A stretch of DNA of 64,000 bases from Acidobacteriota bacterium (GTDB lineage Bacteria > Acidobacteriota > Thermoanaerobaculia > Multivoradales > Multivoraceae): the NCBI GenBank assembly GCA_003388555.1, contig QQVD01000039.1, forward strand, positions 1 to 64,000, given 5' to 3'. The notes beneath the pieces are model-generated. The model did no database searches and had not been told where the DNA came from. It worked only from the letters and a program-made list of their open reading frames with translations. Both the position numbers and the translations under genes were made by a program. Positions 13,921 to 29,624 of the stretch are shown piece by piece. Position 1 is the stretch's first letter. Every line of letters begins with the position of its first letter.

Positions 13921-13931
13921 CTCGACCAGGG

Positions 13932-13960: not shown

Positions 13961-14055
13961 GTCGCCGCGACAGGCAGGCCACCCGACAGGGCCCGCCGGC
14001 CGCCGAGTCTGCAACCCCCCGGCGCGGCCGTTGGGCCGCCGCAACGAGCTGCTCG

Positions 14056-14106: not shown

Positions 14107-14117
14107 GGGACCCATCG

Positions 14118-14621
14118 ATGTCCGACGATGCCGTCACAACCCATCTCACAACCCATCTCACAACCCAGCGCGCTCGTGATCCGCTGATCGGAACCCGACT
14201 GCCCCACGCCGATCCGGCGCTCTACGTGGAGGAGGTCGTCGAGCGCACGTCCCAGCGCCTGGTGTGCCGCGGCCGGCTGCCTCGGGCGATGGCGGCGACC
14301 GGCGCAGCCGGGACCACGGCCCTGCTGGCGCTCGAGCTCGCCGCCCAGGCCTCGGCTCTGTGGGAGGAGGAGCGCGACGGCGAGAGCCGTCCCGAGACGG
14401 CGCTGCTGGTGTCGATCCGCCGCGCCGAGCTGTGCGAGCTGGTCCCGGTGGCGACTCCCCTGCTGGTCGAGCTGACCCCTCAGGGGGGAGCCGGAGGCCT
14501 GCGCAAGTTCGCCTGCACGGTGCGGCTGGAGGGCGACGACCAGCGCACCCTGGCGCGCGCCGACCTGGCCACCTTCTCGCACCCGGCGACCACGGACCGA
14601 GCGGTCGATCCGAAGTCGTGA
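14118..14621 (+). CDS. ApeP-like 3-hydroxyacyl-ACP dehydratase
   Basis: 167 residues of hot-dog fold. The IGTRLPHADPALYVEEVVE segment is the FabZ/ApeP N-terminal signature with the catalytic-type His, and LLALELAAQASALW supplies the acidic residue on the central helix. The GHFPxxPVMPG loop of true FabZ is missing, as in ApeP-type dehydratases of aryl-polyene systems. Likely role: dehydration step of polyene chain elongation. ATG 14118 is followed by a short in-frame tandem repeat giving TTHLTTHLTT (bases 14135-14167, a 12-mer CACAACCCATCT repeated about 2.75 times), so length variation at the N-terminus is possible. The halogenase-like gene follows after 54 bp on the same strand. Confidence 0.75.
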   Translation: MSDDAVTTHLTTHLTTQRARDPLIGTRLPHADPALYVEEVVERTSQRLVCRGRLPRAMAATGAAGTTALLALELAAQASALWEEERDGESRPETALLVSIRRAELCELVPVATPLLVELTPQGGAGGLRKFACTVRLEGDDQRTLARADLATFSHPATTDRAVDPKS

Positions 14622-14675
14622 CCAGGAGCCGAGCGCCCCGTCTGGCTGTAGAGTTCGACCCCGAGGCGCCACCTG

Positions 14676-16379
14676 ATGCCCACCCATTCACCACCCCCCG
14701 CGCCGCCGCAGAGTCGCGACGACTACGACGTCGTCATCGTCGGCGCCGGGTTCTGCGGCGCCAGCGCCGCGACGCTGCTGCGCCGCGCCGTGCCTGGCTG
14801 TCGGGTGCTGCTGATCGACCGCAACCGGACCACCACACACAAGGTCGGCGAGGCGACGGTCGAGGTGTCGGCACGCTTCATGACCGACGTGCTGGGGATC
14901 GGAGAGCACCTGCGCACGTGCCAGCTTCCCAAGCACGGCCTGCGTTTCTGGTTCACCGACGCCCGAGGTCGGCGGCTCGAGGAGATGAGCGAGATCGGTC
15001 CCGCCGCGGCGCCGCCGCTGTCGACCTTCCAGCTCGACCGCTCGGTGCTCGACGAGCACATCGTGAGCCAGGCCGTAGAGGCAGGAGCCGAGCTGGTCCG
15101 CCCCGCGACGGTGCGCTCCTGGGACGAGGGCTGGCCGCGCCAGGCCATCAGTCTCAGCGACGCGGACGGGCAGATGCGCACGGTGACCTGCCGCTGGCTG
15201 CTCGACGCCTCCGGCCGGGCCGCCTTCGTCGCCCGCCGCAAGCGGTTGCTGGAACGCACCGACGACCACCCCACCAACGCGGTGTGGGCCCGCTGGGAGG
15301 GGGTGCACGACCTCGACGGGCCGGCGTTCGTGGGCTCGCCGGATGGCTCCGGTGCTGACTCCGGCGCCGACTCCGGCAGAGAGGGCAGCCCCAGGCTGCG
15401 CCCGCTGCGGGCGCGCAGGCGGCTGGCCACCAACCACTTCTGCGGCCGCGGCTGGTGGTGCTGGATGATCCCCCTGGCCTGCGGTCGCACCAGCGTCGGG
15501 CTGGTCTGGGACAGCACCCTCTTCGATTTGCCCGGCGAGGGTGACGTCCAGCAGCGCTACCAGCAGTTCGTCCGCCGACAGGACGGCCTCCGCGAATTGC
15601 TCGAAGGGGCGCATCCGGTCGAAGGGGACGTCATGGCCTACCGCCACCTCCCCTACCGATCGCGTCGTTTCGCCGACCGCGGCTGGCTGCTGCTCGGCGA
15701 CGCCGGCATGTTCCTCGACCCGTTCTACAGCCCGGGGCTCGACCAGGCATCGATCTCCACGTTCTCGGCGGTGCAGGTGGTCCGGGACGACCTGATGCGC
15801 CAGGCCTCCCGGGCCGGGTCAGCGGCGCCAGGGAACGACGGCGACCCAGCGAGCGAGGAGGAGCTCGACGCTGCGCTGACGTCCCACGACCGCCGCTTCG
15901 ATCGCTCCTACCGACGCTGGCTCGAGGCCCTCTACCTCGGCAAGTACCGGCTGATGGGCGACGCCGAGCTCGCCACCACCGCCTTCCTGGTCGACACGGC
16001 GCTCTACTACCTGGGCGTGGTCGGCCCCGTCTACCGCCACGTCGACGCCTTCGCCAATCCGGTGTTCGGCCTCGACCTGCCGCAGTCCACCTGGTCGTAC
16101 CGCTCCATGCGCTGGTTCAGCCGGCGGCTGCAGCGACTGGCCGAGGTGCGTCGGCGTCAGGGCACCTACGGTCGGCGCAACCTCGGGTGGAGACCGCGCG
16201 TGGTCACCTTCCGTCTCGGACCCCCGGCGCTGCTGCCGCTGGCCCAGGGCATCGCGTACTGGATGCGCATGGAGGGCTCGGCCCTGCTGCACAGCGTCGT
16301 CGGCCGTCGCCGACCCGCCACCGCTCCGGCCGCCACCGACGTCTCGTCCCCACCCGACGAGTCGCGCCGCGTCGCCTGA
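14676..16379 (+). CDS. Flavin-dependent halogenase-like FAD oxidoreductase
   Basis: 567 residues. Dinucleotide-binding motif GAGFCG (23-28) at the N-terminus; VGEAT (57-61), which in halogenases precedes the chloride/FAD region; Lys86 in LPKHGLRFWF, aligned by eye with the catalytic Lys of tryptophan and phenolic halogenases; W-C-W-M-I-P at 261-266, matching the halogenase WxWxIP signature; and GDAGMFLDPFYSPGLDQA (341-358), the second FAD contact. These suggest a true halogenase acting on a carrier-bound or phenolic substrate, although relatives in polyene clusters may be hydroxylases. A disordered Gly/Ser/Asp-rich insertion lies at about 219-240. ATG 14676 has GAGG about 10 bases upstream. 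No flavin reductase is adjacent. Convergent with the acyltransferase gene (8 bp gap). Confidence 0.8.
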   Translation: MPTHSPPPAPPQSRDDYDVVIVGAGFCGASAATLLRRAVPGCRVLLIDRNRTTTHKVGEATVEVSARFMTDVLGIGEHLRTCQLPKHGLRFWFTDARGRRLEEMSEIGPAAAPPLSTFQLDRSVLDEHIVSQAVEAGAELVRPATVRSWDEGWPRQAISLSDADGQMRTVTCRWLLDASGRAAFVARRKRLLERTDDHPTNAVWARWEGVHDLDGPAFVGSPDGSGADSGADSGREGSPRLRPLRARRRLATNHFCGRGWWCWMIPLACGRTSVGLVWDSTLFDLPGEGDVQQRYQQFVRRQDGLRELLEGAHPVEGDVMAYRHLPYRSRRFADRGWLLLGDAGMFLDPFYSPGLDQASISTFSAVQVVRDDLMRQASRAGSAAPGNDGDPASEEELDAALTSHDRRFDRSYRRWLEALYLGKYRLMGDAELATTAFLVDTALYYLGVVGPVYRHVDAFANPVFGLDLPQSTWSYRSMRWFSRRLQRLAEVRRRQGTYGRRNLGWRPRVVTFRLGPPALLPLAQGIAYWMRMEGSALLHSVVGRRRPATAPAATDVSSPPDESRRVA

Positions 16380-16387
16380 CCCGAGGC

Positions 16388-17407
16388 TCAGCTGCCGGGG
16401 CGCCGGCCCCAGAGATCGCGGAAGCAGAACCACTGGTGTGGGTGGCGCCGCACCGCGGCCTCGATCTCCCGCGCCAGCCGCTCCGTGGTCTGGCGCTGCG
16501 CCTGCTCGCGAGGAGCGTCCCGAGACACCTCGATCGGAGGACGGATCACCACCAGCGATCGACCGCGTCCGCGACGGAAGACGAAGATCGGCACCAGGGG
16601 CACCTCGGCGACGCGCGCCAGGGCCGCCGGGCCGAGCGGCATCTCCAGCAGGTTGCCCAGGAAGGGCGCCCAGTGGCTGCGGCCACCGCGGCTGACCCGA
16701 TCCGCCTGCATCGCGACGACCTCGCCGCGACGCAGCGCCGCCAGCAGCCGCGTGCCGAGGGTGAAGTCGTCCTGCCCCGCGTAGTGGAAGACGACCCTGT
16801 CGCCGGCTCGCTCGCGCAGCAGGCGACTGAGGAAGCGCTGCGACCGCGGGTCCATCTCCGCCTGACGCACGACGTGAACGCGCCGATCGGTACGACCGAG
16901 GCGCGAGCCGATCTCCCAGTGTCCGACGTGGGCGGTGACGATGACGAATCCTCCCGGCCTCGACAGCAGGTCCGCCCACACCTCCTCGCCTTCGGTCTCG
17001 ACCTCGACAGCGCCGCCATCGGCGAGACCCTCGTAGGTCTCGGTCAGGCACCACGAGAGATTCAGGATGGTGCGCCAGGCGCCGCGCAGCTCGGCCAACC
17101 GCGACCGGCGACCGCCGGTGAGCCAGGAGAGATTGTGGACCACCGCCCGTCGGATCCTGCCCAGGGCGACGAAGAACGCCAGCGCGAAAAGGACCATCAG
17201 CGGCGGCTTCAGCGGCTCGGGGAGGACGCGGACCCCGAAGAGATGGAACCGGTACCAGAAGACGCCGGAGAAGTGCAGCGGCCCGAGCAGCCGACGCAGC
17301 AGCCTCGACGAGGCGGCGCCCTCTCCCGCACCGCGGCGTCGGCCGGGCCTCTCGCCGCGCGTCGTCGACGCGTCGGCGCTGAGGCTGGTGGAGGTGGCTC
17401 GGCTCAT
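16388..17407 (-). CDS. LpxL/HtrB-like lysophospholipid-type acyltransferase
   Basis: 339 residues. Membrane-associated acyltransferase with HVGHWE at 160-165 (the H-x4-E catalytic motif of LpxL/LpxM), one or two hydrophobic segments near 68-85 and a basic Arg-rich N-terminus (1-45) of low complexity. The end RRHPHQWFCFRDLWG matches the family C-terminus (P-QW-W-YRRF type). In aryl-polyene and xanthomonadin loci a protein of this family is thought to attach the polyene to a lipid head; that role is inferred here from context. Its ATG overlaps the MMPL stop (ATGA), making it the last gene of the ACP-KS-CLF-GT-KR-MMPL operon. Confidence 0.85.
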   Translation of the reverse strand: MSRATSTSLSADASTTRGERPGRRRGAGEGAASSRLLRRLLGPLHFSGVFWYRFHLFGVRVLPEPLKPPLMVLFALAFFVALGRIRRAVVHNLSWLTGGRRSRLAELRGAWRTILNLSWCLTETYEGLADGGAVEVETEGEEVWADLLSRPGGFVIVTAHVGHWEIGSRLGRTDRRVHVVRQAEMDPRSQRFLSRLLRERAGDRVVFHYAGQDDFTLGTRLLAALRRGEVVAMQADRVSRGGRSHWAPFLGNLLEMPLGPAALARVAEVPLVPIFVFRRGRGRSLVVIRPPIEVSRDAPREQAQRQTTERLAREIEAAVRRHPHQWFCFRDLWGRRPGS

Positions 17408-19944
17408 GGTTCGGCGTTCGGATCCGCGACGGGCAGGGAACGGCGCGAGCGCCTCGCGGTCTCGGCGATCGTCGCCACGGCCGGGAGCAGCATCAGGGTG
17501 GCGAGCAGCGCCAGAGCCACCCCGACCGTCACGATCGCTCCGGCGCGGCGGACCGCCGCGATGTTCGACAGCAGCAGGCTAGCGAATCCGGCGCAGGTGG
17601 TCAGCGTGGTCACCGTCATCGCCCGACCCGCCGCCACCGTGGCAGCGAGAAGCCCCCCGCTCCCGCCGGCCGTTCCCTCACCCTGCCCAGCCCTGTGCAC
17701 CACGTGCAGACCGTCGTCGATCCCGATACCGAGGACGATCGGCAGCACCGCGAGTCCGATCAGGTCGAGCGCCTGCACCGACCACCCCCAGCCTCCCAGC
17801 GTCATCGCCGAAGCCACCGCCACCGGCAGCACTGCCAGCGCCGTCGGCGCGACGCGGCGACGGAACGACCACCAGACGACAGCGACCACCACCACCAGCG
17901 CCAGCGGACCGAGCAGCTCGAGATCGTGGCGCGCCGCCCGGGTGAGCTCGGCGGCGAGCTGGGGGAACGACGCCCAGGCGGCGCCGGGGGCCGCGCGCTC
18001 GACGCTCACGCGCACCTCCGGCGGCGGTCCGTCGGGCCACTGCCCGGGAGCGAGCCGCACCTGCACCAGCGCCCGGTACCTCTCGGGACCGAGCACCACG
18101 CTGCCCTCGAGCCACCCAGGCAGATCGACCCGGCCGCCCGCGCCTCCGCCTGCCGCGAGCGCCGGGGGCGCCTCGCCGCGACCCAGCCGGCGCAGGCCCT
18201 CGAGACCGGCACCGAAGGCCCGCGGGTCGAGTCCGGCGGCGACCAGCGCCTCCTCGAAGCGGCCGGCGACCGCGCCGAGGTCGAGCTCGCGCAACTCGCG
18301 CAGACGCCGCGTCAGCGCCTCGGGGCCGAGCAGGAGCTCGCTCGGAGCGGTCACCTCGCTGCCGACCGGCACCGTACGCCTCAGCTCGGCCACAGCCCTG
18401 TGCACTGCAGCCAGCAAGGCGTCGGCGTCCTCGCCCGTGACCACCAGCGCCGCGGTCTCCGAGCCGATGCCGAACTCCTCGGCGAGCAACCGCTCGGTCT
18501 CGTAGAGCGAGCCGCCGCCGGGTCTCAGGTCCTGGAGATCGGTGCCGAGGGTGATGCGCGCGACTCCTGGAACCAGGAGAGCGAGCAGAACCGCCGAAGC
18601 CGCGAGGACCAGGCGCGGGCGCCGGGCGGCACTCTCCGCCACGCGCCGCGTGGCGCCGGCGAGCGCTCGCCAGGCCAGCGGCTGACGCTCGTCGCCGGCG
18701 AGGAGCTGGAGTAGCGCGCCGCCCAGCGTCCAGGTGGCGGTGGCGACGGCCAGGATGCCGAGGGAGACCACCAGGCCGACGTCGCGCAGCAACCGCAGAT
18801 CGGCGAAGAGCAGCACGGCGAAACCGCCGCCCGTGGTCAGAGCCGAGGTCCAGATCGCCGGGCCGATCTCGCGCCGGGTGCGGCGCCAGGCGAGGTCCGG
18901 CGCGGCGCCCGCCACGAGGTGCTGACGTTGGATTCCCGCGCAGTGCACCCCGTAGTCGACTCCGAGCCCCACCAGGACGGCGGCGAATCCGAGGCCGATC
19001 GCCGAGATCTCGATGCCGAGGAGCGCCAACAGAGCGAAGGTCCACACCGCCCCGGCGAGCACCACCGAAACGACGACGGCGGGAAGCCGGAGCGATCCGA
19101 AGACGAGCCACAGGATCGCTCCGCAGACCAGCACCGAGGTGCCGAGGGTCAGCACCAGGTTCCCGCGCACCGCCCGCTCGTCGGCAGCGGCGTAGAGCGG
19201 CCCGCCGACCGCGCGCACGTCGAGCTCGATCGCCGAGCGCTGGAGCCACTCCTCGCGCAGCAGCTCGATCTCGGCCGCGAGCGCGTCGGCGAACCGGCGG
19301 GCGCCGGCCGCGTCGAGCGCATCCACCGCCGGTTCGATCAGCAGCAGAGCCGCCTCGCCTCCGGCAGCGAGAAAGGAACCGGTGAGCGGCTCGAGGGGAA
19401 GCCCCCGCGGTGCTGCGGTGAGCGCCGGTACTGCCTCGACGAGACCGAGCGGATCGCTGCGCGCCAGCATCAGGAAGACCTCGGCGCCACTGGTGGTCGC
19501 CTGTCGGCGCAGCAACGCTGCCCGCTCGGCGAGCGCAGCGTCGGTGGTGCGCACCTCGATCTGCTGGCGCCAGCTGTCGTCGTCGAGCAGCAGCGCGGCG
19601 TACGGCAGGATCTCCTCGAAGAGCAGCTGCTCGTCGCGCTCGCCGATCCCGCTGCGCACCTCGGCGAACAGATCGGGGCGAGTGGCAAGCCGCTCCTCGA
19701 GTCGCCACGCCGCGGCCACCAGCTCGTTCTCGGCGGCGGGCGACGCGGCCGGCGAGGCGATGCGCACGAACACCGTCTCGGCGAGCGCGAAGTCCTCGAT
19801 GACGCTGCTGAAGGCCCGGGCGGTCGGCGCGTCGGCCGGCAGAAGCCGCGTCAGGTCGGTCGACAGCTGCAGACGCGACAGCGGCCACAGTGCGGCGAGA
19901 GTGAGCGCCGCCAGGGCCGCGACGACGATCCGCGGCTTAGGCAC
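17404..19944 (-). CDS. MMPL/RND-superfamily exporter (ApeM-like)
   Basis: 846 residues with two MMPL repeats. Each has a lone helix, a large extracytoplasmic loop (about 25-255 and 475-660) and a bundle of five helices, with VLVGLGVDYGVHC in repeat one and VLGIGIDDGLHV in repeat two carrying the membrane Asp pairs of the proton relay. Members of this group move lipids and polyketide-like products across the inner membrane; the aryl-polyene cluster exporter ApeM is the closest context match. It starts 4 bp after the ketoreductase stop and overlaps the acyltransferase gene. Confidence 0.88.
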   Translation of the reverse strand: MPKPRIVVAALAALTLAALWPLSRLQLSTDLTRLLPADAPTARAFSSVIEDFALAETVFVRIASPAASPAAENELVAAAWRLEERLATRPDLFAEVRSGIGERDEQLLFEEILPYAALLLDDDSWRQQIEVRTTDAALAERAALLRRQATTSGAEVFLMLARSDPLGLVEAVPALTAAPRGLPLEPLTGSFLAAGGEAALLLIEPAVDALDAAGARRFADALAAEIELLREEWLQRSAIELDVRAVGGPLYAAADERAVRGNLVLTLGTSVLVCGAILWLVFGSLRLPAVVVSVVLAGAVWTFALLALLGIEISAIGLGFAAVLVGLGVDYGVHCAGIQRQHLVAGAAPDLAWRRTRREIGPAIWTSALTTGGGFAVLLFADLRLLRDVGLVVSLGILAVATATWTLGGALLQLLAGDERQPLAWRALAGATRRVAESAARRPRLVLAASAVLLALLVPGVARITLGTDLQDLRPGGGSLYETERLLAEEFGIGSETAALVVTGEDADALLAAVHRAVAELRRTVPVGSEVTAPSELLLGPEALTRRLRELRELDLGAVAGRFEEALVAAGLDPRAFGAGLEGLRRLGRGEAPPALAAGGGAGGRVDLPGWLEGSVVLGPERYRALVQVRLAPGQWPDGPPPEVRVSVERAAPGAAWASFPQLAAELTRAARHDLELLGPLALVVVVAVVWWSFRRRVAPTALAVLPVAVASAMTLGGWGWSVQALDLIGLAVLPIVLGIGIDDGLHVVHRAGQGEGTAGGSGGLLAATVAAGRAMTVTTLTTCAGFASLLLSNIAAVRRAGAIVTVGVALALLATLMLLPAVATIAETARRSRRSLPVADPNAEP

Positions 19945-19948
19945 GGGC

Positions 19949-20710
19949 TCAGGCCGACGCTCCCGCGTCGACCGGTACGCACTGGCCGGTGATCGCGCCG
20001 GCGTCTTCGGAGAGCAGGAAGCACACCGTCGCCGCCACCTGCCGGGCGTCGACGCCCCGCGGCAGTGACTCGGCCGCGCGCAGGACGGAGATCACGCGTT
20101 CGGGCAGTGTCGAGGTCATGTCGGTGGCGACGAAGCCGGGCACCACCGCGTTGACCCGCACGCCGCGGCTGCCGATCTCGCGCGCCAGCGACCGGGTGAG
20201 CGCGAGCACGCCAGCCTTCGACGCGGCGTAGGCCGCCGGGCCCGCGACACCGCGCAGCGCCGCCAGCGACGAGAGGTTGACGACCGCGCCACGACGACGC
20301 CGCACCATCAGCGGCACCACCGCGCGGCAGAGGCGGAAGACCCCGCCTAGGTTGACGTCGAGCACCCGATCCCACTGCTCGTCCGAGGTCATCGCCAGCA
20401 GCCCGGAGTGGGCGATGCCTGCGTTGTTGACCAGGCCGTCGATCTCTCCGACGCGATCCTCGACCTCGCCGACGAGCCGCTTGGCGGCGCCACGATCGGC
20501 CGCGTCCCATTCGAAGGCTCGCACCTGGCCCTCCCGGCCGTCGCACACCGCCTCGGCCGCGGCGGCGTCGCTGCGATAGGTGAGGGCGACCCGGCAGCCT
20601 CTGTCGGCGAGCATCTCGACGACGGCGCGGCCGATGCCCCGACCGCCGCCGGTGACCAGGACGACGCGCGGAGCGGAGCTCGAACGAACGCTCTCGCTGG
20701 TGTCGCTCAT
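19949..20710 (-). CDS. 3-oxoacyl-ACP reductase, FabG/ApeQ-like SDR
   Basis: 253 residues, classical short-chain dehydrogenase: cofactor motif TGGGRGIG (20-27), NNAG (95-98), catalytic Ser148, Tyr161 and Lys165 (YAASK), and [20 protein letters not shown] at the C-terminus as in FabG. The basic residue after the glycine motif favours NADPH. Likely reduces the beta-keto group during polyene elongation. ATG 20710 overlaps the glycosyltransferase stop (ATGA), which fixes this start against the longer open frame. Confidence 0.88.
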
Positions 20711-21432
20711 CCGCTGCCTCCGGCGACCGCCGAGCCGGTGACGAAGCGCGCCGCGATCACGGCTCGAGCGATGCGCAGGCTGTCGAGCCAGGGTCGGTAG
20801 TGGCTGGTGTGCCGCCCGTCGGCGAAACCCAGCTCGACTGGCGTCGAGGCGATGCCGAAGCCGCGACGCGCAGCCCGGACGACGATGGCGCTCTCGGCGG
20901 CGAACCGCTCGCCGTGCATCGGCACCTGCGAGACCAGTTGACGGGTGTAGAGCCGGAAGCCGGTCTGCACGTCCGAGATCGGCGCACCGGCCGCCAGCGA
21001 GATGGCGCGGCTCGACAGACGATTGCTCAGCCTGCGCACCCGGCTCATCCCCTCGAACAGGTGGTCCCGGGTGCCGAGCACCAGGTCGATCTGCGGTGTC
21101 CATGCGGCGAGCAGCTTGGGGATCTCCTCGGGCAGGTGCTGCCCGTCGGCGTCCACGGTGATTACGGCGTCGTACGGCTGCCCCGCGGCGAACAGCACCT
21201 CGAAGGCGGTGCGTAGAGCGGCTCCCTTGCCGCGATTGTGCTCGTGACGGACCACCTCGCAGCCGAGTCTTCGCGCCGCCTCGCTGGTGTCGTCGCTCGA
21301 GCCGTCGTCGATCACCAGGACCCGCTCGATCGCCTCGAGTCGACCGACCTGGTCGAGACAACGGCGCACCACCGCGCCGAGGTACGGTCCCGCCTGGTAG
21401 GCGGGGATGGCGATCGCGACCCGGCGGCTCAC
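20707..21432 (-). CDS. Family 2 glycosyltransferase (DPM1-like)
   Basis: 241 residues. GT-A fold: AIAIPAYQAG opening, VLVIDDGSSDDT (39-49), NRGKGAALRTAF, and VITVDADGQH with the DxD at 94-96 that binds the nucleotide-sugar metal. Length and motifs resemble dolichol-phosphate-mannose synthase-like enzymes; no added membrane domain is present. The start is GTG 21432: its GTGA overlaps the TGA that ends the shifted reading frame of the chain-length-factor gene, so the operon runs on without a gap. It probably glycosylates the polyene or its lipid carrier; this role is inferred. Confidence 0.82.
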   Translation of the reverse strand: MSRRVAIAIPAYQAGPYLGAVVRRCLDQVGRLEAIERVLVIDDGSSDDTSEAARRLGCEVVRHEHNRGKGAALRTAFEVLFAAGQPYDAVITVDADGQHLPEEIPKLLAAWTPQIDLVLGTRDHLFEGMSRVRRLSNRLSSRAISLAAGAPISDVQTGFRLYTRQLVSQVPMHGERFAAESAIVVRAARRGFGIASTPVELGFADGRHTSHYRPWLDSLRIARAVIAARFVTGSAVAGGSG

Positions 21433-21608
21433 GGCGTGCCGCCTTCGAGGAGAAGCCAGGCGGCGGCGCCTCCCGCGGCGAGAGCCGAGACCAGGACCCG
21501 GCGGGGAGCGGCCGCGGCGGCATCGCAGGCAGGCAGTCTCAGACGGGGGTCGATCCGATCCGCCTGCGCCGTCAGTCCGGGGCCCAGATCCTCTCCCGCG
21601 CAGGCCGC
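21429..21608 (-). other. Out-of-frame C-terminal part of the chain-length-factor gene
   Basis: In the -1 frame relative to the upstream gene, 59 codons run from about 21608 to the TGA at 21431-21429. They encode a typical ketosynthase end: a hydrophilic linker with IDPRLRLP, then RRVLVSALAAGG and WLLLEGG, the last strand of the thiolase fold. The stop overlaps the GTG of the glycosyltransferase, exactly like the other overlaps in this operon. Adding one base near 21608-21611 would join both parts into about 409 residues. Confidence 0.8.
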
Positions 21609-22657
21609 ACCGCCGCGGCCAGCGTCGCGCCGCCGAACTCGCCGGTGATCGCCTTCGGAGTGAGCACCGGCGGCGTGCGCCGCGGCCAGACAGCACGCAG
21701 CACGGCGGCCTCGAGCGCATCGCCAGGCCGTGATCCGCTGGCACCACTGACGATCAGGTCGATCGACTCCGCCGGGCAGTCGAAACGCTCCAGTCCCCGG
21801 CGCAGCGCCTCCACCAACGGCGCCGGGTCGTCACTCCAGGAGGTCTGCGGAGCCCGCGGATCGAACGCGGCGATACAACCGCGAATACCGGCGAGACGTC
21901 GCGGTGCAGCCTCCGTCGGCTCGACGACCACCACCGCGGCGCCCTCGCCGAGGACGAAGCCGGTGCGCTCGCGGGCGAAGGGAAGCGCCCGTTCGTCGCC
22001 TCCCTCGAGCGGCCGCGCCAGCGCGCCGTAGCGGTCGAGCACGGAGTGCAGCAGCGGGTCGAGCTCCTCCACAGACCCGGCGAGTGCCCTGGGAGCCTCG
22101 CCCGCGGCGACCACGTCCACGGCCTCGGCGACGGCGAGCAGAGCGCTCGCCTCACGCTGCGTCACCGTGACGTTGGTGCCGCGACAGCCCAGGCGCAGCG
22201 CCACCTGAGCCGCCGGAGCGTTGGCGACCGACTCGATGAACAGGACCGGCGAGGCGGCCTGCGGTCCGTCGTCGTGCACCTGGCGGAGCAAACCCTCGGT
22301 GTAGGCGGAGGGGCCGTAGCAGGTGCCGAGGCAGACCGCCGCCCGGCTCCAATCGCACTGCGAAGCCGCCTCTCGCGCCGCCGTCGCCTCGATCGCAGCC
22401 GCCACCGCGAAGCGGGAGGGACGGCTCATCCGGCGAGCCCGCGCCGGGGGCAGCCAGGCGCCCACCGAGGCCGCGTCGACCGTGGCGGCCAGGCGCGCGC
22501 CCGCGGCGGCGCCGAACCGTCGGTGGTAACGACGGTCGACCGGGGTGAAACGCCGCGTACCGGTGCGCAGGGCGTCTGCGAGGGCGGCGGTGCCGGCGCC
22601 ACAGGACGAGATCACTCCCAGTCCCGAGACGACCACCGATGCGTCCTGCGTCGTCAT
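21572..22657 (-). CDS. Chain-length-factor-like ketosynthase (ApeC-like), interrupted by a frameshift
   Basis: 361 residues in this frame, 40-50 short of a full ketosynthase. Thiolase fold begins VVVSGLGVISSCG. The active-site Cys region reads TVTQREASALLAVAEA (about 164-179), so Cys is absent; the HGTGT position reads SGASGSRPGD and the second His region reads KAITGEFGGATLA. All three catalytic residues are therefore replaced, as in chain length factors that pair with an active KS. The frame runs out at 21572 with a non-family tail after GATLAAAV, while the proper C-terminus continues in the -1 frame to 21429. This is either a true inactivating deletion or a one-base sequencing/assembly error. 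ATG 22657 overlaps the KS stop (ATGA). Confidence 0.82.
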   Translation of the reverse strand: MTTQDASVVVSGLGVISSCGAGTAALADALRTGTRRFTPVDRRYHRRFGAAAGARLAATVDAASVGAWLPPARARRMSRPSRFAVAAAIEATAAREAASQCDWSRAAVCLGTCYGPSAYTEGLLRQVHDDGPQAASPVLFIESVANAPAAQVALRLGCRGTNVTVTQREASALLAVAEAVDVVAAGEAPRALAGSVEELDPLLHSVLDRYGALARPLEGGDERALPFARERTGFVLGEGAAVVVVEPTEAAPRRLAGIRGCIAAFDPRAPQTSWSDDPAPLVEALRRGLERFDCPAESIDLIVSGASGSRPGDALEAAVLRAVWPRRTPPVLTPKAITGEFGGATLAAAVRPARERIWAPD

Positions 22658-23949
22658 GCGCTCTCCGTCGCGCCGGCCAGCACCACGGCGGCGTTGGCGC
22701 CGCCGAAGGCGAGGTTCGTCGATACGGCGCAGCCACCCCGAGGAATCTCGCGCGGCTGCTCGCGAACCAGGTCGACGCCGATCTCGTCGTCGACCGGGCC
22801 CGCCCCCCAGGTGGGGTGCAGCTCGCCGCGAGCCAGGCAGAGGATCGTCGCCACCGCCTCGATCGCCCCGGCAGCGCCGAGAAGGTGCCCGAGGCCGCTC
22901 TTGGTCGAGGTCACCGGCAGGGTGGCTGCGGCGGGGCCGAAGACGCTCTCGAGCGCTCGCCACTCGGCGATGTCGTTGTGCTGCGTGCCGGTGCCGTGGG
23001 CGTTGACGAAATCGACCCCCTCCGGCTCGCGGCCGGCGTCGGCGAGCGCCGCGCGGATCGCCGCCGCGGCCCCTTCACCACCGGGCTCGGGCGCGGTCAT
23101 GTGGTGGGCGTCGCACGAACCGGCGGCGCCGAGCAACCGCGCCCGGGGTGTCGCGCCGCGTCGCTCCGCGTCCTCAACGCGTTCGAGCACCAGCACGGCG
23201 GCTCCCTCGCCGAGCGACAGCCCGGAGCGGGTGGCGCGGAAGGGGCGACAGGGTCGCTCGTCCACCGCGCGCAGCGCATTGAAACCGGCGTAGGTGAGCT
23301 GGCACAGCCCGTCGGCTCCACCGACCAGGGCGACGTCGACCTCGCCTCGGCGCAGGCAGCGCAGGGCGCTGACGAAAGCGAGCGAACCGCTGGAGCAGGC
23401 CGAGGAGATGGTGAGTACGCGGCCGCGCACGGCGAAGCGGCGGGCGACCGCGTCGCCCGGGCAGTTCAGCGTATGGCCGCGGGTGAGCCGCAGCCGCGGC
23501 CGGCTCGACGGATCGTCGAGCAGGGCGAAGAAGTAGCGCTCCGCCTCTGCCATCCCGGCGGTGCTGCCCGAGAAGAAGACGCCGGCCCGACCGCTCCAAT
23601 CTCCCTCGGCCTCCAGCCCGGCCTGCGCCAGGGCCTCGTGGGCGGCGGCCAGGGCGAAGCGATCGGCGCGCGACGACCGCACCCCGCCGCTGCCGCCGGC
23701 CGCTTCCCCGAGTCGCTGGCGGACCTGCTCGGGCGCCGCCGGCACCTCCGCCACCAGCGCGGTGCGGTGCCCGGAGACATCGAACCGGCGTGGCGAGCCG
23801 ATGCACGGGCCGGCGCGCAGCCCGCGCTCGAGGTCGTGCGCGCTCCAGCCGTAGCCGGACACGGCACCGATCCCGGTCACCACGACATCCGGCCGCTCCC
23901 GGATCGGAGCCCGACTCGGCTGCGGGGGCGACGAATCGCCGCAGGTCAC
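22654..23949 (-). CDS. Beta-ketoacyl-ACP synthase (FabF/ApeR/ApeO-like), catalytically complete
   Basis: 431 residues. Nucleophile Cys185 in SSACSSGSLAF, His318 in NAHGTGTQHND, Lys350 and His355 in STKSGLGHLLGAAG: the full condensing triad plus lysine. The C-terminus has the normal NLAFGGANAAVVL. It should form the active partner of the Cys-less ketosynthase downstream. The start GTG 23949 overlaps the ACP stop (GTGA). A Pro/Arg-rich stretch of about 19 residues precedes the thiolase core. Confidence 0.9.
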   Translation of the reverse strand: MTCGDSSPPQPSRAPIRERPDVVVTGIGAVSGYGWSAHDLERGLRAGPCIGSPRRFDVSGHRTALVAEVPAAPEQVRQRLGEAAGGSGGVRSSRADRFALAAAHEALAQAGLEAEGDWSGRAGVFFSGSTAGMAEAERYFFALLDDPSSRPRLRLTRGHTLNCPGDAVARRFAVRGRVLTISSACSSGSLAFVSALRCLRRGEVDVALVGGADGLCQLTYAGFNALRAVDERPCRPFRATRSGLSLGEGAAVLVLERVEDAERRGATPRARLLGAAGSCDAHHMTAPEPGGEGAAAAIRAALADAGREPEGVDFVNAHGTGTQHNDIAEWRALESVFGPAAATLPVTSTKSGLGHLLGAAGAIEAVATILCLARGELHPTWGAGPVDDEIGVDLVREQPREIPRGGCAVSTNLAFGGANAAVVLAGATESA

Positions 23950-24254
23950 GTCGTCGCGATCCTCGATCCCGACGCCGGCTCCTCTCCACCGGTCGCGAAC
24001 CTCTGCTGCACGAACTGCTCGAGCGCGGCGACGCTGGCGAAGCTCTCGGGATCGACCTCCTCGCTGTCGACGACGATGCCGTAGTCCTTCTCGAGCACGA
24101 CGATCAGCTCGAGGGCGTCGATCGAGTCGAGGCCGAGGCCCTCGTCGCCGAAGAGGGGCTGCTCGTCGCCGATGTCCGCGGGCGTCATCCCTTCCAGACC
24201 GAGACTCTCGATGATGATCCGCTTGATGGCTTCGCGATCGGGAGGAAGGGACAT
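23946..24254 (-). CDS. Acyl carrier protein of the polyene synthase
   Basis: 102 residues. Helix-rich acidic ACP with GLDSIDALEL at 41-50; Ser44 is the phosphopantetheine site. The DSI variant of DSL and the trailing 20-residue Ser/Gly-rich tail differ from housekeeping AcpP. It is the first gene of the minus-strand cluster operon, and its TGA overlaps the ketosynthase GTG. ATG 24254 is preceded by a purine-rich GGAG about 10 bases upstream. Confidence 0.9.
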   Translation of the reverse strand: MSLPPDREAIKRIIIESLGLEGMTPADIGDEQPLFGDEGLGLDSIDALELIVVLEKDYGIVVDSEEVDPESFASVAALEQFVQQRFATGGEEPASGSRIATT

Positions 24255-24832
24255 CTCACTCCGGCTCCGGTCTAGCTCTGGTCCAGCTCTGTCTCGCGGT
24301 GTCGCCGAAAACGGCGAGCCTCTCGGGCCCGCAGGCGATCCGCGGCGGCGGCGCTCGGTGGCCTGATTCCGACCCGGTCTTCGCCCGCCCGCACGCGGGG
24401 GCCGACGGGAGTCGGGATGCTGCGCCCGCCATGATTGGCATCCACCGATGGTCTGCAAAGCCCCAGGCTGTCGGCTCTCCACCGGCTCGGCAAAGGCCCG
24501 AGGAGAGTACCACAGGGGCAGACGGATCCGGGCCCGGGTGAGGTCGCAACGAGAGGCCGTCTGGACGCCTTTCGGCACAAGATCTCCGGCCCGTGGACCA
24601 CCCACCGGCGGGTGCCGGCGTCGAGCTGCGGCCGCTCTACAATGACAACGCCTGGCCTCAGCCCAGCGCCCACCGCGAGACCCTCGATCCGGCCCACCGT
24701 GGCCATCACCGAGGCCGACCGTGATCCACCGTCGCCAGGCCGCGCCCGGCGCACGGGCAGAGGTCGCGGCGCCCAAGACCAGGGGTGGCCGGGCGTCAGG
24801 GTGGTGGGCCCGCTCGAACGCTGTTGGTGACG
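24255..24832. other. Divergent intergenic region, ACP operon / AMP-ligase operon
   Basis: 578 bp without a supported gene; open frames here have no family features. It must hold the promoters of both halves of the pigment cluster. On the plus strand TACAAT at 24640-24645 is a fair -10 box, though no good -35 lies 16-18 bases upstream, giving a leader of about 180 bases for the ligase gene. No clear promoter was recognised for the ACP direction. Confidence 0.4.
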
Positions 24833-26269
24833 ATGCATCCGATCCTCGACTGCTGGGACCATCTCCTGCGCCGCGACGCGCAACGGATCGTCGTCGTGCA
24901 CGGCGAGGGCGAGCTGCGGGCGACGGTGGGCGACGTCGACCGCCTGGCCCGCGACGCGGCCCGTCGCCTCTCGTCGCTGCCAGCCGGCGGTGTGGTGCTG
25001 CTCGAGGGCGACGCGGGGCCCGGCTTCCTGGCCGCGCTCCTGGCCTGCTGGCGCGGCGGCCTGACGCCGGCCCTCGCCCCTGCCTCGGGACAGGAGACGA
25101 CGCGAGCGGCGTTGGGGCAGGCTCTCGGCTGCTGCGGCGTGGCCAGGCTCATCGGCGACTGGCCGGCCGACGAGTGGCTGGTCTGCACCCGGGCGAACAC
25201 CTCGGGCACCACGATGCCGGCGCCCCCAGGCGGTGCGCCCGGAGTCCTCAAGCTGACCTCCGGCAGCAGCGGCGCGCCGCGCGCCGTGCACACCACCGCC
25301 GAGCAGCTGGCAGCGGACGACCGGGCGCTGACCGCGACGATGGGTCTGGACGAAGGCGACCGCATCCTCGCCGCGATCCCGCTGAACCACTCCTACGGAC
25401 TGGCCAGTGTCGCCCTGCCGCCGTTGGTACGCGGGGCGGCGATCGTGCAACCGTCTCGTGGCAACCCGTTCGCGCCGGCACAGGCGGCGTGTCGCCACCA
25501 GGTCACCTTCCTGCCCACCACCCCCGCCTACCTCGCCGCCCTGGTGGCCGCGCGCCGCCCGCCGCCGGTGCCGTCCTCGCTCCGGCTGGTGATCTCCGCC
25601 GGCGCCCCGCTGACGGCGGCGACCGCGGAGGCCTTCCGCGCCACCTACGGCCTCGCAGTGCACACCTTCTACGGATCGAGCGAGACCGGAGGTATCACCT
25701 TCGACCGCCGCGGCGGCGCCGCCGAACGCGGCACCGTCGGAGAACCGGTAGAGGGGGTGGAGGTGAGCCTGCAGCCGTTGTCCGCCGGCGACCGGCGCGA
25801 CCCCGGTCAGGGCACGGTGGTGGTGCGCTCGCCGGCGGTGGCCAGCGGCTACTTCCCGACCGTCGACGAGCGGCTCGGCGACGGGCGATTCGTGACCGGC
25901 GACCTCGGGCGGTTCTCGGACGACGGGCGCGGAGTCGAGCTGGCACTGCTGGGCCGCACCGACCGGGTGCTGAACCTGCGCGGCCGCAAGCTCGATCCAC
26001 GCGAGCTCGAGAGCATCGTCGAGTCGTTGTCCGGCGTGCGCGAAGCCGCCGCGCTGCAGATCCGCGGTGAGGACGGCGCACCCGGAGCCCTGAGGCTGGT
26101 CGTCGCCGGCGACGCCGACCTTCCCGACGCGGCGCGGCTGCGCGACTTCCTCCACCGACGTCTGCCTCCCCACGAGCGGCCGCGCAGCGTCGTCTTCGTG
26201 ACCGAACTGCCGCGCAACGAACGCGGCAAGATCGACTTCGCGGCGATGCAACGGCCCGACTTCCGCTGA
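24833..26269 (+). CDS. AMP-forming acyl/aryl ligase (ANL superfamily)
   Basis: 478 residues. Motifs in order: LTSGSSGAPRAV (P-loop A3, with Arg in place of the usual Lys), YGSSETGG (A5), TGDLGRF (A7), GRTDRVLNLRGRKLDPRELE (hinge, A8) and PRNERGKID (A10 with the catalytic Lys). It should activate a carboxylic acid as acyl-AMP and load it on the ACP. With the chorismatase two genes downstream, a hydroxybenzoate is the likely substrate, as for the ligase of xanthomonadin and ApeH-like enzymes of aryl-polyene loci. I used ATG 24833; GTG 24827 is also possible. The deacetylase starts 4 bp after its stop. Confidence 0.82.
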   Translation: MHPILDCWDHLLRRDAQRIVVVHGEGELRATVGDVDRLARDAARRLSSLPAGGVVLLEGDAGPGFLAALLACWRGGLTPALAPASGQETTRAALGQALGCCGVARLIGDWPADEWLVCTRANTSGTTMPAPPGGAPGVLKLTSGSSGAPRAVHTTAEQLAADDRALTATMGLDEGDRILAAIPLNHSYGLASVALPPLVRGAAIVQPSRGNPFAPAQAACRHQVTFLPTTPAYLAALVAARRPPPVPSSLRLVISAGAPLTAATAEAFRATYGLAVHTFYGSSETGGITFDRRGGAAERGTVGEPVEGVEVSLQPLSAGDRRDPGQGTVVVRSPAVASGYFPTVDERLGDGRFVTGDLGRFSDDGRGVELALLGRTDRVLNLRGRKLDPRELESIVESLSGVREAAALQIRGEDGAPGALRLVVAGDADLPDAARLRDFLHRRLPPHERPRSVVFVTELPRNERGKIDFAAMQRPDFR

Positions 26270-26273
26270 CGAC

Positions 26274-27122
26274 GTGTCCGACCACGACTCCCCCGCAGCC
26301 CCGGCGAGGCCCGCGGCGAACCGCCCGCTGTCTCCCTTCGTCGCCGCGGCGCTCGCCGCCCACGTGGCGGCGCCGCCGTTGCTGTGGGCGGCGCCGTCGA
26401 CCCTCGCCGGCGTCGCCGCGGCGCTCGTGGCGCTGAACCTCACGGGGTTCGTCGCCGGGCTGCTGCCGCGCAGCCGCCTGCTGGGCCCCAATCTGACCGC
26501 CTGCGCCCGCCGCCACCCGCAGACCGGTGAGCCGGCGGTGGCCCTGACCTTCGACGACGGTCCGGATCCACGAGCGACCCCGGAGGCTCTCGATCTGCTC
26601 GCCGGGGCCGGTGCTCGGGCGACGTTCTTCTGCATCGGCGAGCGCGCCGCGGCACACCCCGAGCTGGTGCGCAGGATCTCGGCCGGAGGCCACCGGATCG
26701 AGAACCACACCTTCACCCATCCCCTGCACTTCGCCTGGCTCGGGCCGCGCGGACTGGCGCGCGAGATCGACCGCGCCCAGGAGGTCCTCGGCGAGCTCGC
26801 CGACCGTGCCCCCCGCCTGTTGCGGGCCCCCGCCGGCATCCGCAGTCCCCTCCTCCAGCCCCTGCTCTCGCGACGAGGTCTGCGTCTGGCCTCCTGGAGC
26901 CGCCGCGGCTACGACGCGGTGCACGACGACCCGCGGGCGATCCTGAGGCGGCTGACCCGCGACCTGCGTCCGGGCGAGGTGCTGCTGCTGCACGACGGAA
27001 GGGCTCACGGCTCCGCTCGCCGCGGGCGGAGGCTGCCAGTGCTCGAAGTGCTGCCCGCGCTGCTGGCGGAGCTCGAGCGGAGGGGTCTACGGACGACGCT
27101 GCTGGAGGCGCCCGACTCCTGA
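26274..27122 (+). CDS. NodB-type polysaccharide deacetylase (CE4) with N-terminal membrane helices
   Basis: 282 residues. One or two Ala/Leu-rich helices at about 20-65, then a NodB domain: TFDDGPD (92-98) with the base/metal Asp pair, HTFTHP (145-150) with two metal His, RAPAGIRSP (motif 3) and LLLHDG (motif 5 His). All catalytic motifs look intact, so a Zn-dependent N- or O-deacetylase at the membrane is likely. GTG start, 4 bp after the ligase gene. In this setting it may act on the sugar added by the glycosyltransferase; that is speculation from position. Confidence 0.82.
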   Translation: MSDHDSPAAPARPAANRPLSPFVAAALAAHVAAPPLLWAAPSTLAGVAAALVALNLTGFVAGLLPRSRLLGPNLTACARRHPQTGEPAVALTFDDGPDPRATPEALDLLAGAGARATFFCIGERAAAHPELVRRISAGGHRIENHTFTHPLHFAWLGPRGLAREIDRAQEVLGELADRAPRLLRAPAGIRSPLLQPLLSRRGLRLASWSRRGYDAVHDDPRAILRRLTRDLRPGEVLLLHDGRAHGSARRGRRLPVLEVLPALLAELERRGLRTTLLEAPDS

Positions 27123-27342
27123 GCGCCTCGAACGGACGCGGTCGGCGGTTGCGGCTCGTCTCGCCCACCTCCCGGGCTCCGGCGACCGCATCGGATCCCG
27201 GGCGGCGCTGGCGCGGCGAGCTCTCCGAGAAGTCGAGGCAAGCGGACCGTGTCAGTCCGGTGCCATCCTGGCGGCGCCTCACCACAGGGCTCGCCGTAGC
27301 TCCTGTCGCCAGAATTCGGAGATGCTGGTCTAGGATGCCCGG

Positions 27343-28299
27343 ATGCCACTGGTCGTGGAATCCCGAGCACAATCCTCCTCGAGCGCACTGGAGATCCTCG
27401 TCAGCGACGAGCCCTCGCCCGTGCGCTGGCTGAGCCGGCTCTTCGGTGACGACGCGGCGCTGACACCCGGCGTCACGCGCTCGACCGACGACGGCCAGGT
27501 CGCCCTGCTGGTCCGTTCGATCCGGGGCGCCGCGGCCCTCGACGACCGGGCCTTCGAGGCCGCCGTCCGCGAGCTCTACCTGGAGCTCCTCGGTGAGCTG
27601 CGGGAACGCGGCCTCGAGCCCATCCGGCTGTGGAACCACGTGCCGGAGATCCTCCGCCCCGGAGGACGTGGCGGGTTGCGCTACATGGTGTTCAACGCCG
27701 GGCGGTATGCCGCCTACGCCGAGTTCCACGGCGCCGGGGAGCCCTTCGGGAGACGTCTCCCGACCGCGTCGGGCACCGGCTGCGGAGGATCCGATCTGCT
27801 CCTCTACTGCCTCGCGTCGGCGGACGGCGGCGAGCCGCTCGAGAACGCCCGGCAGATCCCGGCGTATCGCTACTCGAAGCGCTACGGGACCTTCCCTCCC
27901 TGCTTCACCCGCGCCACCCGGGTCGCTTCGCGCACCCTCGGCCTGCCGGGGCCGGAGCGCCCGGCGCTGCTGGTCGGCGGCACCGCGAGCATCCGCGGCG
28001 AGTCGTCGCTCCACCGGGGTCTGTTGATGCGACAGCTCGAGGAGACGCTCGACAATCTCGTCGAGCTCACCCGCAGCGGGCTGGAGCAGACCCCTGCCGC
28101 GGCGGCCGAGATCGACGGGCGGTCGCGCGCCCTGGGTCGCTTCCGCGACCTGCGCGTCTACCACCCGTCGCGCGCCGATCGCCAGTCGCTGCGCGACGCC
28201 GTCGGCGAGCTCTTCCCAGGCCTCGACACGCTCGAGCTGGTGACCTGCGACCTCTGCCGCCCCGAGCTCCTGGTGGAGATCGAGGGTACGGCCGTTTGA
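27343..28299 (+). CDS. Chorismatase (FkbO/Hyg5/XanB2 family), hydroxybenzoate-forming
   Basis: 318 residues. Family motifs throughout: RLWNHVPEI (95-103), RYMVFNAGRYAAY, SGTGCGGSDLLLYCLA, ENARQIPAYRYSKRYG, LLVGGTASIRGESSLH (His224), QLEETLDNL (Glu233/234, active-site acid region) and the end DLCRPELLVEIEG. These enzymes split chorismate to pyruvate plus 3- or 4-hydroxybenzoate (Hyg5, XanB2) or to a dihydroxycyclohexadiene acid (FkbO). The subtype cannot be fixed from motifs alone, but the adjacent ligase and ketosynthases favour a hydroxybenzoate starter unit. It lies 220 bp after the deacetylase; TAGGAT at 27331-27336 may be its own -10. Its stop overlaps the peptidase start. Confidence 0.88.
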   Translation: MPLVVESRAQSSSSALEILVSDEPSPVRWLSRLFGDDAALTPGVTRSTDDGQVALLVRSIRGAAALDDRAFEAAVRELYLELLGELRERGLEPIRLWNHVPEILRPGGRGGLRYMVFNAGRYAAYAEFHGAGEPFGRRLPTASGTGCGGSDLLLYCLASADGGEPLENARQIPAYRYSKRYGTFPPCFTRATRVASRTLGLPGPERPALLVGGTASIRGESSLHRGLLMRQLEETLDNLVELTRSGLEQTPAAAAEIDGRSRALGRFRDLRVYHPSRADRQSLRDAVGELFPGLDTLELVTCDLCRPELLVEIEGTAV

Positions 28300-29624
28300 C
28301 CTGCACCATCGATCCCGCGGCGCTCCTCGACCGGAGGTTGGACAACGGACTGCGGGTCCTCCTCCTCGCCGACCACCGCCTCCCCCTGGTCGCGATCGAC
28401 GTCTGGTACCACGTCGGCTCGCGTCACGACCCGCCGGGGCGCACCGGTCTGGCTCACCTGTTCGAGCACATGCTCTTCCAGGGTTCCGCCAACGTCGGCC
28501 CCAACGAGCACTTCGCCAGGGTCCAGCAGGTCGGCGGAGTCGCCAACGGCTCGACCTGGTACGACCGCACCAACTACTACGAGACGCTGCCCGCGGGAGC
28601 CCTCGAGCTCGGTCTCTGGCTGGAGAGCGACCGCATGGGGTTCCTGCTCGAGGCACTCGACCAGGACAAGCTCGAGCTGCAGCGGGGAGTGGTCAGCAAC
28701 GAGCGCCGTCAGCGGGTCGACAACCAGCCCTACGGCGCCGCCTCCGAGCGCCTCAACGAGCTGCTCTACCCGGACGGACACCCCTACGGCTGGCCGGTCA
28801 TCGGCCGCATGGAAGACATCCAGGCGGCGACGCTGGAGGACACGCGGTCCTTCTTCGCCACCCACTACGCGCCACGCAACGCCACCCTGGCGCTGGTCGG
28901 GGACTTCGAGCCCGCGGTCGCTCTCGAGGCCGTGGGTCGCTACTTCGGCGACCTGCCGGAACAGGCCGACGGAGCCGTCGACCTGGAGGCGCGGCTGCCC
29001 GGCGTCGACGTCCAGCGGCCGGCGCGGCGGAACGCACCGGAGCACGCGCTACTCGTCGACGAAGTCGCCACGGCACGGGTCAGCCTGGCGTGGTCCGTCG
29101 ACGGCTACGCCAGCGAGCTCTGGTTCTCGTCGCAGATCGTCGCCGCCGTCCTCGCCGAGGGCAAGGCGAGTCGCCTCGAACAGAGGCTGGTGCGGCAGCT
29201 CGAGCTCGCTACCAGCGTCAACGCCTACGTGCTGCCCACCGAGTGCTGTGCCACCTTCGCGATCACCGCCTCGGCGCGGCCCGACGTCTGCGCCGAGCGG
29301 GTACGCGCCGCCATCGAGGAGGTGATCGAGGAGCTGCGCCGCGACGGCTGCGAGCCGTCCGAGGTCGAGCGGGTCCTCGCCTGCGCCCGAGCGGATCATC
29401 GCTGGGCGCTGCAGACGATCCAGGCCCGCGCCGACGCGATAGCACGCGACGCGACGTATCTCGACGATCCGACTCACCTGGCCTCGTTCGAGCAGCGACT
29501 CGCCGAGGCGGCCGGGGAGGCGCGTCTGCGCTCCGCGTTGCGGGAGATCGATCCACAGGCGGCGGTCGGCGTCTCGGTGGTGCCGAAGTCGGCCGACCCG
29601 GGAACGCGAGGCGCCTCGACGTGA
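28296..29624 (+). CDS. M16-family zinc metallopeptidase, catalytic subunit
   Basis: 442 residues. Inverted zinc motif HLFEH at 54-58 with the distal zinc Glu at 136 (VVSNERR), the spacing usual for pitrilysin/PqqL-like peptidases. LVGDF and the C-terminal half follow the M16 fold. No ATG fits: TTG 28296 is the only start upstream of the core, overlaps the chorismatase stop (TTGA) and has GAGGG about 8 bases before it. No signal peptide is seen, although relatives are often periplasmic. It probably works with the next gene as a two-chain protease. Confidence 0.85.
   Translation: MTCTIDPAALLDRRLDNGLRVLLLADHRLPLVAIDVWYHVGSRHDPPGRTGLAHLFEHMLFQGSANVGPNEHFARVQQVGGVANGSTWYDRTNYYETLPAGALELGLWLESDRMGFLLEALDQDKLELQRGVVSNERRQRVDNQPYGAASERLNELLYPDGHPYGWPVIGRMEDIQAATLEDTRSFFATHYAPRNATLALVGDFEPAVALEAVGRYFGDLPEQADGAVDLEARLPGVDVQRPARRNAPEHALLVDEVATARVSLAWSVDGYASELWFSSQIVAAVLAEGKASRLEQRLVRQLELATSVNAYVLPTECCATFAITASARPDVCAERVRAAIEEVIEELRRDGCEPSEVERVLACARADHRWALQTIQARADAIARDATYLDDPTHLASFEQRLAEAAGEARLRSALREIDPQAAVGVSVVPKSADPGTRGAST

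Follow-up and report, generated by a model that had tools for sequence, protein, structure and literature searches.

We examined a twelve-gene cluster (positions 14118-28299) within a 64,000-base stretch of an Acidobacteriota genome, here called the window (G000:C34:1-64000; the source genome is a 6.8 Mb draft in 74 contigs). The cluster is probably a self-contained set of genes that makes a polyene for the cell envelope from a hydroxybenzoate starter, and its synthase and starter enzyme are of a lineage apart. The predicted pathway follows the logic of xanthomonadin and aryl polyene (APE) biosynthesis, and its synthase and starter lineage occurs in several Acidobacteriota families. An earlier, sequence-only reading of the same DNA had labelled the cluster a xanthomonadin/aryl-polyene synthase; that label was not supported, as the ketosynthase (KS), chain length factor (CLF), chorismatase and halogenase-type enzyme each fell outside the xanthomonadin (Xan), aryl polyene (Ape) and arcuflavin (Arc) groups. 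The logic it had proposed (a hydroxybenzoate starter, a ketoreductase and a dehydratase without a separate enoyl reductase, and LpxL-like and MMPL genes for export) was well supported by the gene content.

The genes lie in three transcription blocks: dehydratase (DH) and halogenase-type enzyme (HAL) on the + strand; LpxL-like acyltransferase, MMPL pump, ketoreductase (KR), glycosyltransferase (GT2), CLF, KS and acyl carrier protein (ACP) on the - strand; and AMP-dependent acid ligase (AMP ligase), NodB-type deacetylase and chorismatase on the + strand. Four gene pairs of the - strand block share 4-base overlaps. The earlier inventory of twelve gene types within 14 kb was borne out: all twelve were reading frames at their places and eleven scored above the Pfam cut-off, the exception being DH, which was identified by profile and fold.

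The starter enzyme

The chorismatase (27343-28299, + strand) scored 40 bits against PF21168 (FkbO_Hyg5-like_N; cut-off 27), and 118 bits (E 4.5e-34) against NCBIfam TIGR04444, under the curated cut-off of 325. It carries G144, G213 and C305 together with the catalytic Glu E312; G, G and C are the residues given for the CH-II/Hyg5 subfamily in the available text of PMC7170507. The best match among solved structures was the Hyg5-type 5ag3 (E 1.4e-29), with 4bps (FkbO) at E 9e-16. A grouping with FkbO-type starter enzymes, which the sequence-only reading had named as an outcome that would speak against it, was not found by residues or by best structural match, and an FkbO-type enzyme was ruled out by G213 and C305. 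The hydroxybenzoate starter it had proposed was upheld, in that the enzyme is of the hydroxybenzoate-forming kind by sequence; the product predicted from the residues is 3-hydroxybenzoate. A single chorismatase was found in the source genome.

In a quick tree of 107 rows the window chorismatase lay in a deep clade of 14 (96 SH-aLRT) made up of Acidobacteriota, Planctomycetota and one Myxococcota, away from the Xanthomonas, Variovorax/Aromatoleum and actinobacterial enzymes. Nine of the 13 clade rows with all sites had the GGC triplet (first site A in three and C in one; the 14th row was truncated). The comparison triplets were AGC for the XanB2 clade (8/8) and for the Arc/Variovorax enzymes (17/19), GGC for the actinobacterial enzymes (8/8), and GAA for FkbO. 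After the GTAS stretch, GE replaced GH in 14/14 rows of the deep clade vs 5/95 other rows. Orthology to XanB2 was ruled out by the tree and by the first residue (G, not A). Four relatives of the window by KS (G193, G255, G153 and G092) carried a conventional AGC-type chorismatase; the KS lineage has thus been combined with two chorismatase lineages.

Ketosynthase and chain length factor

The KS (22654-23949, - strand; PF00109/PF02801, ketoacyl-synt 109 bits) keeps the active residues C185, H318 and H355, all in invariant columns over seven rows. The CLF (21572-22657, - strand) is of the full-length type, with PF00109 and PF02801 (ketoacyl-synt 95 bits). Where the KS has its cysteine, the window CLF and five of the six relatives aligned have Gln; the sixth (L050) has Leu. 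Gln at this position is described for Act-CLF and for Lysobacter ORF16 in the accessible part of PMC3691225. According to the text available from PMC8358021, the CLF of aryl polyene synthases is about half of the KS and has one thiolase fold. Against the profile of this half-size type (PF13723) the window CLF scored 28-29 bits, vs 225 for E. coli ApeC (240 aa) and 76 and 92 in two Xanthomonas genomes; the half-size, one-domain CLF of Xan/arcuflavin-type clusters is therefore not what the window encodes. Elsewhere in the source genome, PF13723 gave just a 25-bit match, within another full-length CLF.

For the trees, the references were the E. coli CFT073 aryl polyene cluster, E. coli FabF and FabB, KS loci from plasmids, and named chorismatase loci; Iga11/Iga12 and flexirubin enzymes were not among them. 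A 213-aa fragment (L068), duplicate window genes and most open reading frames (ORFs) above 560 aa, taken as type I fragments, were dropped before the KS trees were built, and recognised CLFs were excluded from the KS-only trees, save that the CLF frames of L207, L209 and L212 stood in the 72-row tree as "newAcido", lying apart. In the 58-row KS tree the window clade (seven Acidobacteriota rows, 100/100) was separate from the ApeO/Xan/Arc clade (21 rows; fork 100/99). The 72-row quick tree, from which the KS of L071 and L085 were left out (as from the tests below), agreed: the window clade held 15 Acidobacteriota rows (98), and five KS of families f6 and f8 formed another clade (100), which joined Ape/Xan at only 89 SH-aLRT. 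By the approximately unbiased (AU) test, a KS lineage sister to Ape/Xan was unrejected (p 0.86); placing the KS inside Ape/Xan cost 31.7 log units relative to the quick tree (p 0.079) and is disfavoured, short of formal rejection; placing it with FabF cost 30.5 (p 0.104). Of the trees proposed earlier as a check, that of the KS gave a clade of its own outside Ape/Xan, and a grouping with FabF or with an unrelated polyketide family was neither obtained nor excluded. With another KS clade and another CLF size, the cluster falls outside the known Xan/Ape/Arc synthase family.

Searched against solved structures, the KS profile scored 345 bits for FabF 1j3n, 293 for 6kxd_A (which we take to be the ishigamide enzyme Iga11) and 233 for ApeO 6qsp_A. 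The best solved match of the CLF profile was PDB 9s5h, and no paper on that structure was found.

A single family can hold both synthase types: in G089 (locus L058), which belongs to the window's own family, the KS fell inside the Ape/Xan clade and the CLF scored 84 bits against PF13723. At 9247-16948 this locus combines the Xan-type KS and PF13723-type CLF with a chorismatase of conventional type and a halogenase that groups with the window's. Other KS/CLF arrangements were also seen. The source genome has a second full-length KS/CLF-like pair (G000:C20, about 16,360-18,960; L198:8361-10963) near FAD amine-oxidase-like and metallo-beta-lactamase-fold genes, possibly another type II polyketide synthase (PKS) locus. 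Two Planctomycetota loci (L071:2227-4605 and L085:7508-9886) have KS and CLF fused in one 792-aa frame, and the chorismatase gene next to it falls in the same deep clade as the window's. A related variant, whose KS/CLF is of a type of its own, was present in G125:C1 and G325:C1 (L041, L042, L161, L162) and also in L070; this variant has a LolA gene (in L042, with relatives in L070 and L043).

Distribution among Acidobacteriota

In a genome of the same family (G152) the full set of twelve lay together on one stretch, DH and HAL being recognised there by Pfam, and large parts of the set were found in G193, G255, G153, G092, G119, G145, G238 and G271. Across a phylum sample of 347 genomes, the window's included, the CLF profile gave at least 432 bits in 14 genomes, 267-302 in five, 195-230 in the next nine, and less in the rest. 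The arrangement is not a chance one, because G152 holds all twelve genes and 14 of the 347 genomes carry the CLF type.

Chorismatase matches (E <= 1e-3) were present in 31 of the 347 genomes: 16 of the 19 CLF-type genomes, which span 12 families, vs 15 of the 328 others (Fisher 1.7e-16, with the CLF line drawn beneath the top 19 after the scores were seen and kinship ignored by the test). At E <= 1e-15 the counts were 16/19 vs 8/328. The chorismatase lay within the same fetched region as a window-type KS in seven genomes (the window's, G334, G152, G193, G255, G153 and G092). CLF and chorismatase were on separate contigs in nine of the 16 (G318, G326, G145 and G015, and, of families f6 and f8, G029, G230, G254, G067 and G042), so the association is more than linkage. 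At 14 further CLF loci, taken over 20 kb or to the contig end, the window's AMP ligase had a match at 14, its KS at 13, ACP at 12, GT2 at 10 and HAL at eight, some of the last weak.

Tailoring, carrier and export genes

The DH (14118-14621, + strand) reads as an ApeP/FabZ-like 3-hydroxyacyl-ACP dehydratase of the hot-dog fold. It gave no match in Pfam or NCBIfam; it was recovered at E 1.5e-25 in an iterated ApeP/Xan dehydratase profile (built over the ORFs of the window and the fetched loci; 39 ORFs), in one family with the Xanthomonas DHs and E. coli ApeP, and it keeps the invariant P-H and E..Q residues in an alignment of 20 rows. Its AlphaFold2 model (pLDDT 82.3) gave FabZ structures on top in Foldseek, with ApeI:P 6qsr_B at rank 16; TM scores by query length were 0.59-0.68 across the 50 rows shown. 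The KR (19949-20710, - strand), a FabG-like short-chain dehydrogenase/reductase, scored 220 bits against PF13561 (adh_short_C2), its best Pfam model, whose title is that of an enoyl reductase; we read it as a ketoreductase because it passed the NCBIfam FabG cut-off (NF009466, 224 bits vs 222). The twelve scanned proteins included no separate enoyl reductase and no cyclase/aromatase.

The remaining carrier and export genes were an ACP with a DSI motif (23946-24254, - strand; PF00550 PP-binding, 38 bits), an AMP-dependent acid ligase, by inference for an aryl acid (24833-26269, + strand; PF00501, 132 bits), an LpxL-like acyltransferase (16388-17407, - strand; PF03279 Lip_A_acyltrans, 74 bits), and an MMPL/HAE3-type resistance-nodulation-division (RND) exporter (17404-19944, - strand; PF03176, 93 bits; TIGR00921, 172 bits, under cut-off).

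HAL (14676-16379, + strand) is a flavin-dependent halogenase-type enzyme (PF04820 Trp_halogenase, 56 bits); the Lys and the WxWxIP motif were kept in all 31 flavoproteins compared, HAL included. It fell in a clade of five (100 SH-aLRT; the window, G152, L058 of G089, L083 and L134), apart from a 26-row set with the Xanthomonas/Arc-type halogenases, and L083 and L134 have both paralogues. The earlier suggestion of a possibly halogenated product still holds as a possibility, the catalytic Lys and WxWxIP being kept. HAL is not a Xan/Arc orthologue.

The GT2 (20707-21432, - strand; PF00535, 86 bits) mostly resembles polyprenyl-phosphate glycosyltransferases, its NCBIfam matches all being below cut-off, and the NodB-type polysaccharide deacetylase (26274-27122, + strand) scored 103 bits against PF01522 (Polysacc_deac_1). 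Both a glycosyltransferase and a polysaccharide deacetylase appear in the arcuflavin cluster table in the available text of PMC3949708, where the proposed product is a hybrid with a dialkylresorcinol. Among 80 named chorismatase loci (the best 80 of 547 confirmed; many are cut by contig ends) a NodB match was found at 13 and a nearby KS match at 31. The glycosylated variant read earlier from these two genes was not supported; to go from GT2 and NodB to a glycosylated pigment is a weak step, because both occur in the arcuflavin cluster.

Surroundings of the cluster

The two divergent operons are separated by 578 bases with no gene picked (24255-24832, no strand assigned), likely the promoter region. 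A LexA gene flanks the cluster on one side, and two M16 peptidase genes and elongation factor G (EF-G) on the other. The M16 genes follow the chorismatase at 28296-31036 with overlapping frames; the chorismatase of G230 (L052) likewise adjoins an M16 pair. The EF-G beside the cluster (31254-33332) is an extra one: another lies further right (48549-62318), together with EF-Tu and both large subunits of RNA polymerase. Left of the cluster (7710-13117) were a glycine-betaine transporter, a TetR-like regulator, an acyl-CoA-dehydrogenase-like flavoprotein and a protein that, by its sequence, we presume to be an EgtD-type methyltransferase.

Discussion

We propose that the chorismatase would convert chorismate to 3-hydroxybenzoate, which the AMP ligase would load onto the ACP; KS and the full-length CLF would then extend it with malonyl units. 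As the gene content suggests, the action of KR and DH would leave a conjugated chain, since a separate enoyl reductase is absent. HAL might halogenate or hydroxylate the ring, the LpxL-like acyltransferase and the MMPL pump would serve attachment and export of the product, and for GT2 and NodB a role in the carrier or anchor is more probable than glycosylation of the polyene, in line with arcuflavin-type clusters. Hydroxybenzoate-primed precedents with the same accessory genes are described in the portions available of PMC3949708 and PMC3691225. A bolder version, which we hold only tentatively, is that this is a second class of hydroxybenzoate-primed polyene synthase, evolved separately: a full-length KS-CLF lineage of Acidobacteriota would have replaced the half-size-CLF synthase within the same accessory set, would have a halogenase and a deep clade of 3-hydroxybenzoate-forming chorismatase of its own, and would make an undescribed halogenated aryl polyene lipid.

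Several observations weigh against a polyene pathway of this kind. Besides the limits of the co-occurrence test given above, no chorismatase match was obtained in three of the 19 CLF-type genomes (G119, G238 and G271), and among the next nine by CLF score it was found in four only (G125, G325, G200 and G116). On a 62-kb contig, G334 had just KS, CLF, NodB and chorismatase of the twelve, and KR, MMPL, LpxL and NodB were each matched at four of the 14 further CLF loci. The twelve cluster genes included no LolA, thioesterase or APE-type methyltransferase (nor a second DH); two LolA genes lie elsewhere in the source genome, where the LolA_3 profile (PF19574) had no match, as it had none in the controls either. 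The earlier statement that the window lacks ammonia-lyase, thioesterase, methyltransferase and LolA was checked over the twelve genes of the cluster, none of which is such a gene, and over part of their neighbourhood. Each of the six genomes tested has one ammonia-lyase gene (PF00221), which in G000 lies away from the cluster, on contig C17; it is probably an ordinary histidine ammonia-lyase, uninformative on the starter. Since the synthase lies outside the Ape/Xan clade, homology does not settle how long the chain is or even that it is a polyene, and the polyene is an unproven prediction from the genes.

The CLF frame also counts against a working pathway in this strain. It stops at 361 aa, and those of six relatives run to 403-427 aa; alignment with these and three-frame reading showed that the final 45-50 codons, which are conserved, continue in a different frame as far as the start of GT2, which they overlap. 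The sequence-only reading had not noted this break. Among the 14 best copies in a profile search of the phylum, the window's alone had a stop inside it (one TGA), and the CLF frame of G152 is open. This may represent a sequencing error, or it could be a real lesion; an error is plausible because the genome is a draft of 74 contigs. That the cluster is decaying or inactive in the source strain, or that the frameshift is a meaningless assembly error, is a reading to which we give low credence: conserved residues do run on out of frame, but the frames of the eleven remaining genes are uninterrupted and agree with their families or with relatives.

The KS and CLF might make some other polyketide or lipid from hydroxybenzoate (short, reduced only in part, or linked through a resorcinol or an ester) and not a long polyene pigment, and we regard this as unlikely. 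A CLF of full length, such as aromatic and highly reducing type II PKS have, the higher KS profile scores for 6kxd_A and FabF than for ApeO, and the large, previously unexplored non-actinobacterial KS-CLF clade in the available text of PMC10132072 point that way; the presence of KR and DH, the lack of a separate enoyl reductase and of a cyclase/aromatase among the scanned genes, and LpxL and MMPL genes typical of polyene lipid clusters do not. It is distinctly improbable that the cluster is an ordinary xanthomonadin/arcuflavin-type one, orthologous throughout and just divergent. Its accessory set is that of arcuflavin and of many Proteobacteria loci, and the AU test allows a sister placement and stops short of rejecting an inside one; but the KS clade, the PF13723 scores, the separate chorismatase and halogenase clades, and the true Xan-type KS/CLF of G089 in the same family largely refute it as a matter of orthology. 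Very improbable is a chorismatase that primes something else and sits beside the PKS by chance. The nine genomes with chorismatase and CLF on different contigs would fit such a view, but the enzyme lies near a window-type KS in seven genomes, it co-occurs with the CLF type in 16 of 19, and the source genome has only the one.

KS-CLF genes in Acidobacteriota are not new as such, because the survey in PMC10132072, in its available part, already lists this phylum among the bearers. Among the titles and abstract beginnings listed from openly licensed literature, we found no paper on such a cluster (aryl polyene, xanthomonadin or chorismatase in Acidobacteria). What the cluster adds is a chemistry open to test for one lineage of full-length KS-CLF pairs, with a chorismatase as starter enzyme, reduction genes of the polyene type and export to the envelope. 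Should the polyene prediction hold, half-size and full-length CLFs could be compared on one starter for their contribution to polyene length, and the product would be a candidate photoprotective pigment class for Acidobacteriota.

Comparison with known systems

The arcuflavin cluster of Azoarcus sp. BH72 and the xanthomonadin clusters of Xanthomonas and Lysobacter share with the window chorismatase, AMP ligase, ACP, KS/CLF, KR, DH, glycosyltransferase, acyltransferase, exporter and halogenase, with the NodB deacetylase in arcuflavin (PMC3949708 and PMC3691225, available parts). Of what marks such clusters, the window has an apparently hydroxybenzoate-type chorismatase linked to AMP ligase, ACP, KS, KR and DH, together with LpxL-like and MMPL genes. 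It differs in KS clade, in a full-length rather than half-size CLF, and in chorismatase clade (with G, not A) and halogenase clade; its twelve genes also include neither LolA nor a methyltransferase of the APE type nor a second DH. With the APE clusters of E. coli CFT073 and Xenorhabdus, as far as the available text of PMC8253772 goes, it has in common a type II KS and CLF, KR, hot-dog DH, acyltransferase and RND/MMPL exporter, whereas those have the 240-aa ApeC and a 4-hydroxybenzoate starter, with no chorismatase annotated in the cluster there. They also have a second KS (ApeR), LolA and a thioesterase, which the window cluster is without.

The Hyg5-type (CH-II) chorismatases are like that of the window in G, G, C and the catalytic Glu, and supply its best solved match; the window enzyme differs in its separate deep clade, in GE rather than GH and in its sub-cut-off TIGR04444 score. 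Aromatic type II PKS share the full-length KS and CLF (the window's CLF frame being broken near its end) and differ by a cyclase/aromatase, which is not among the twelve proteins. The highly reducing type II PKS represented by 6kxd, presumably that for ishigamide, resemble the window in their full-length CLF and in a KS that its profile matches above ApeO.

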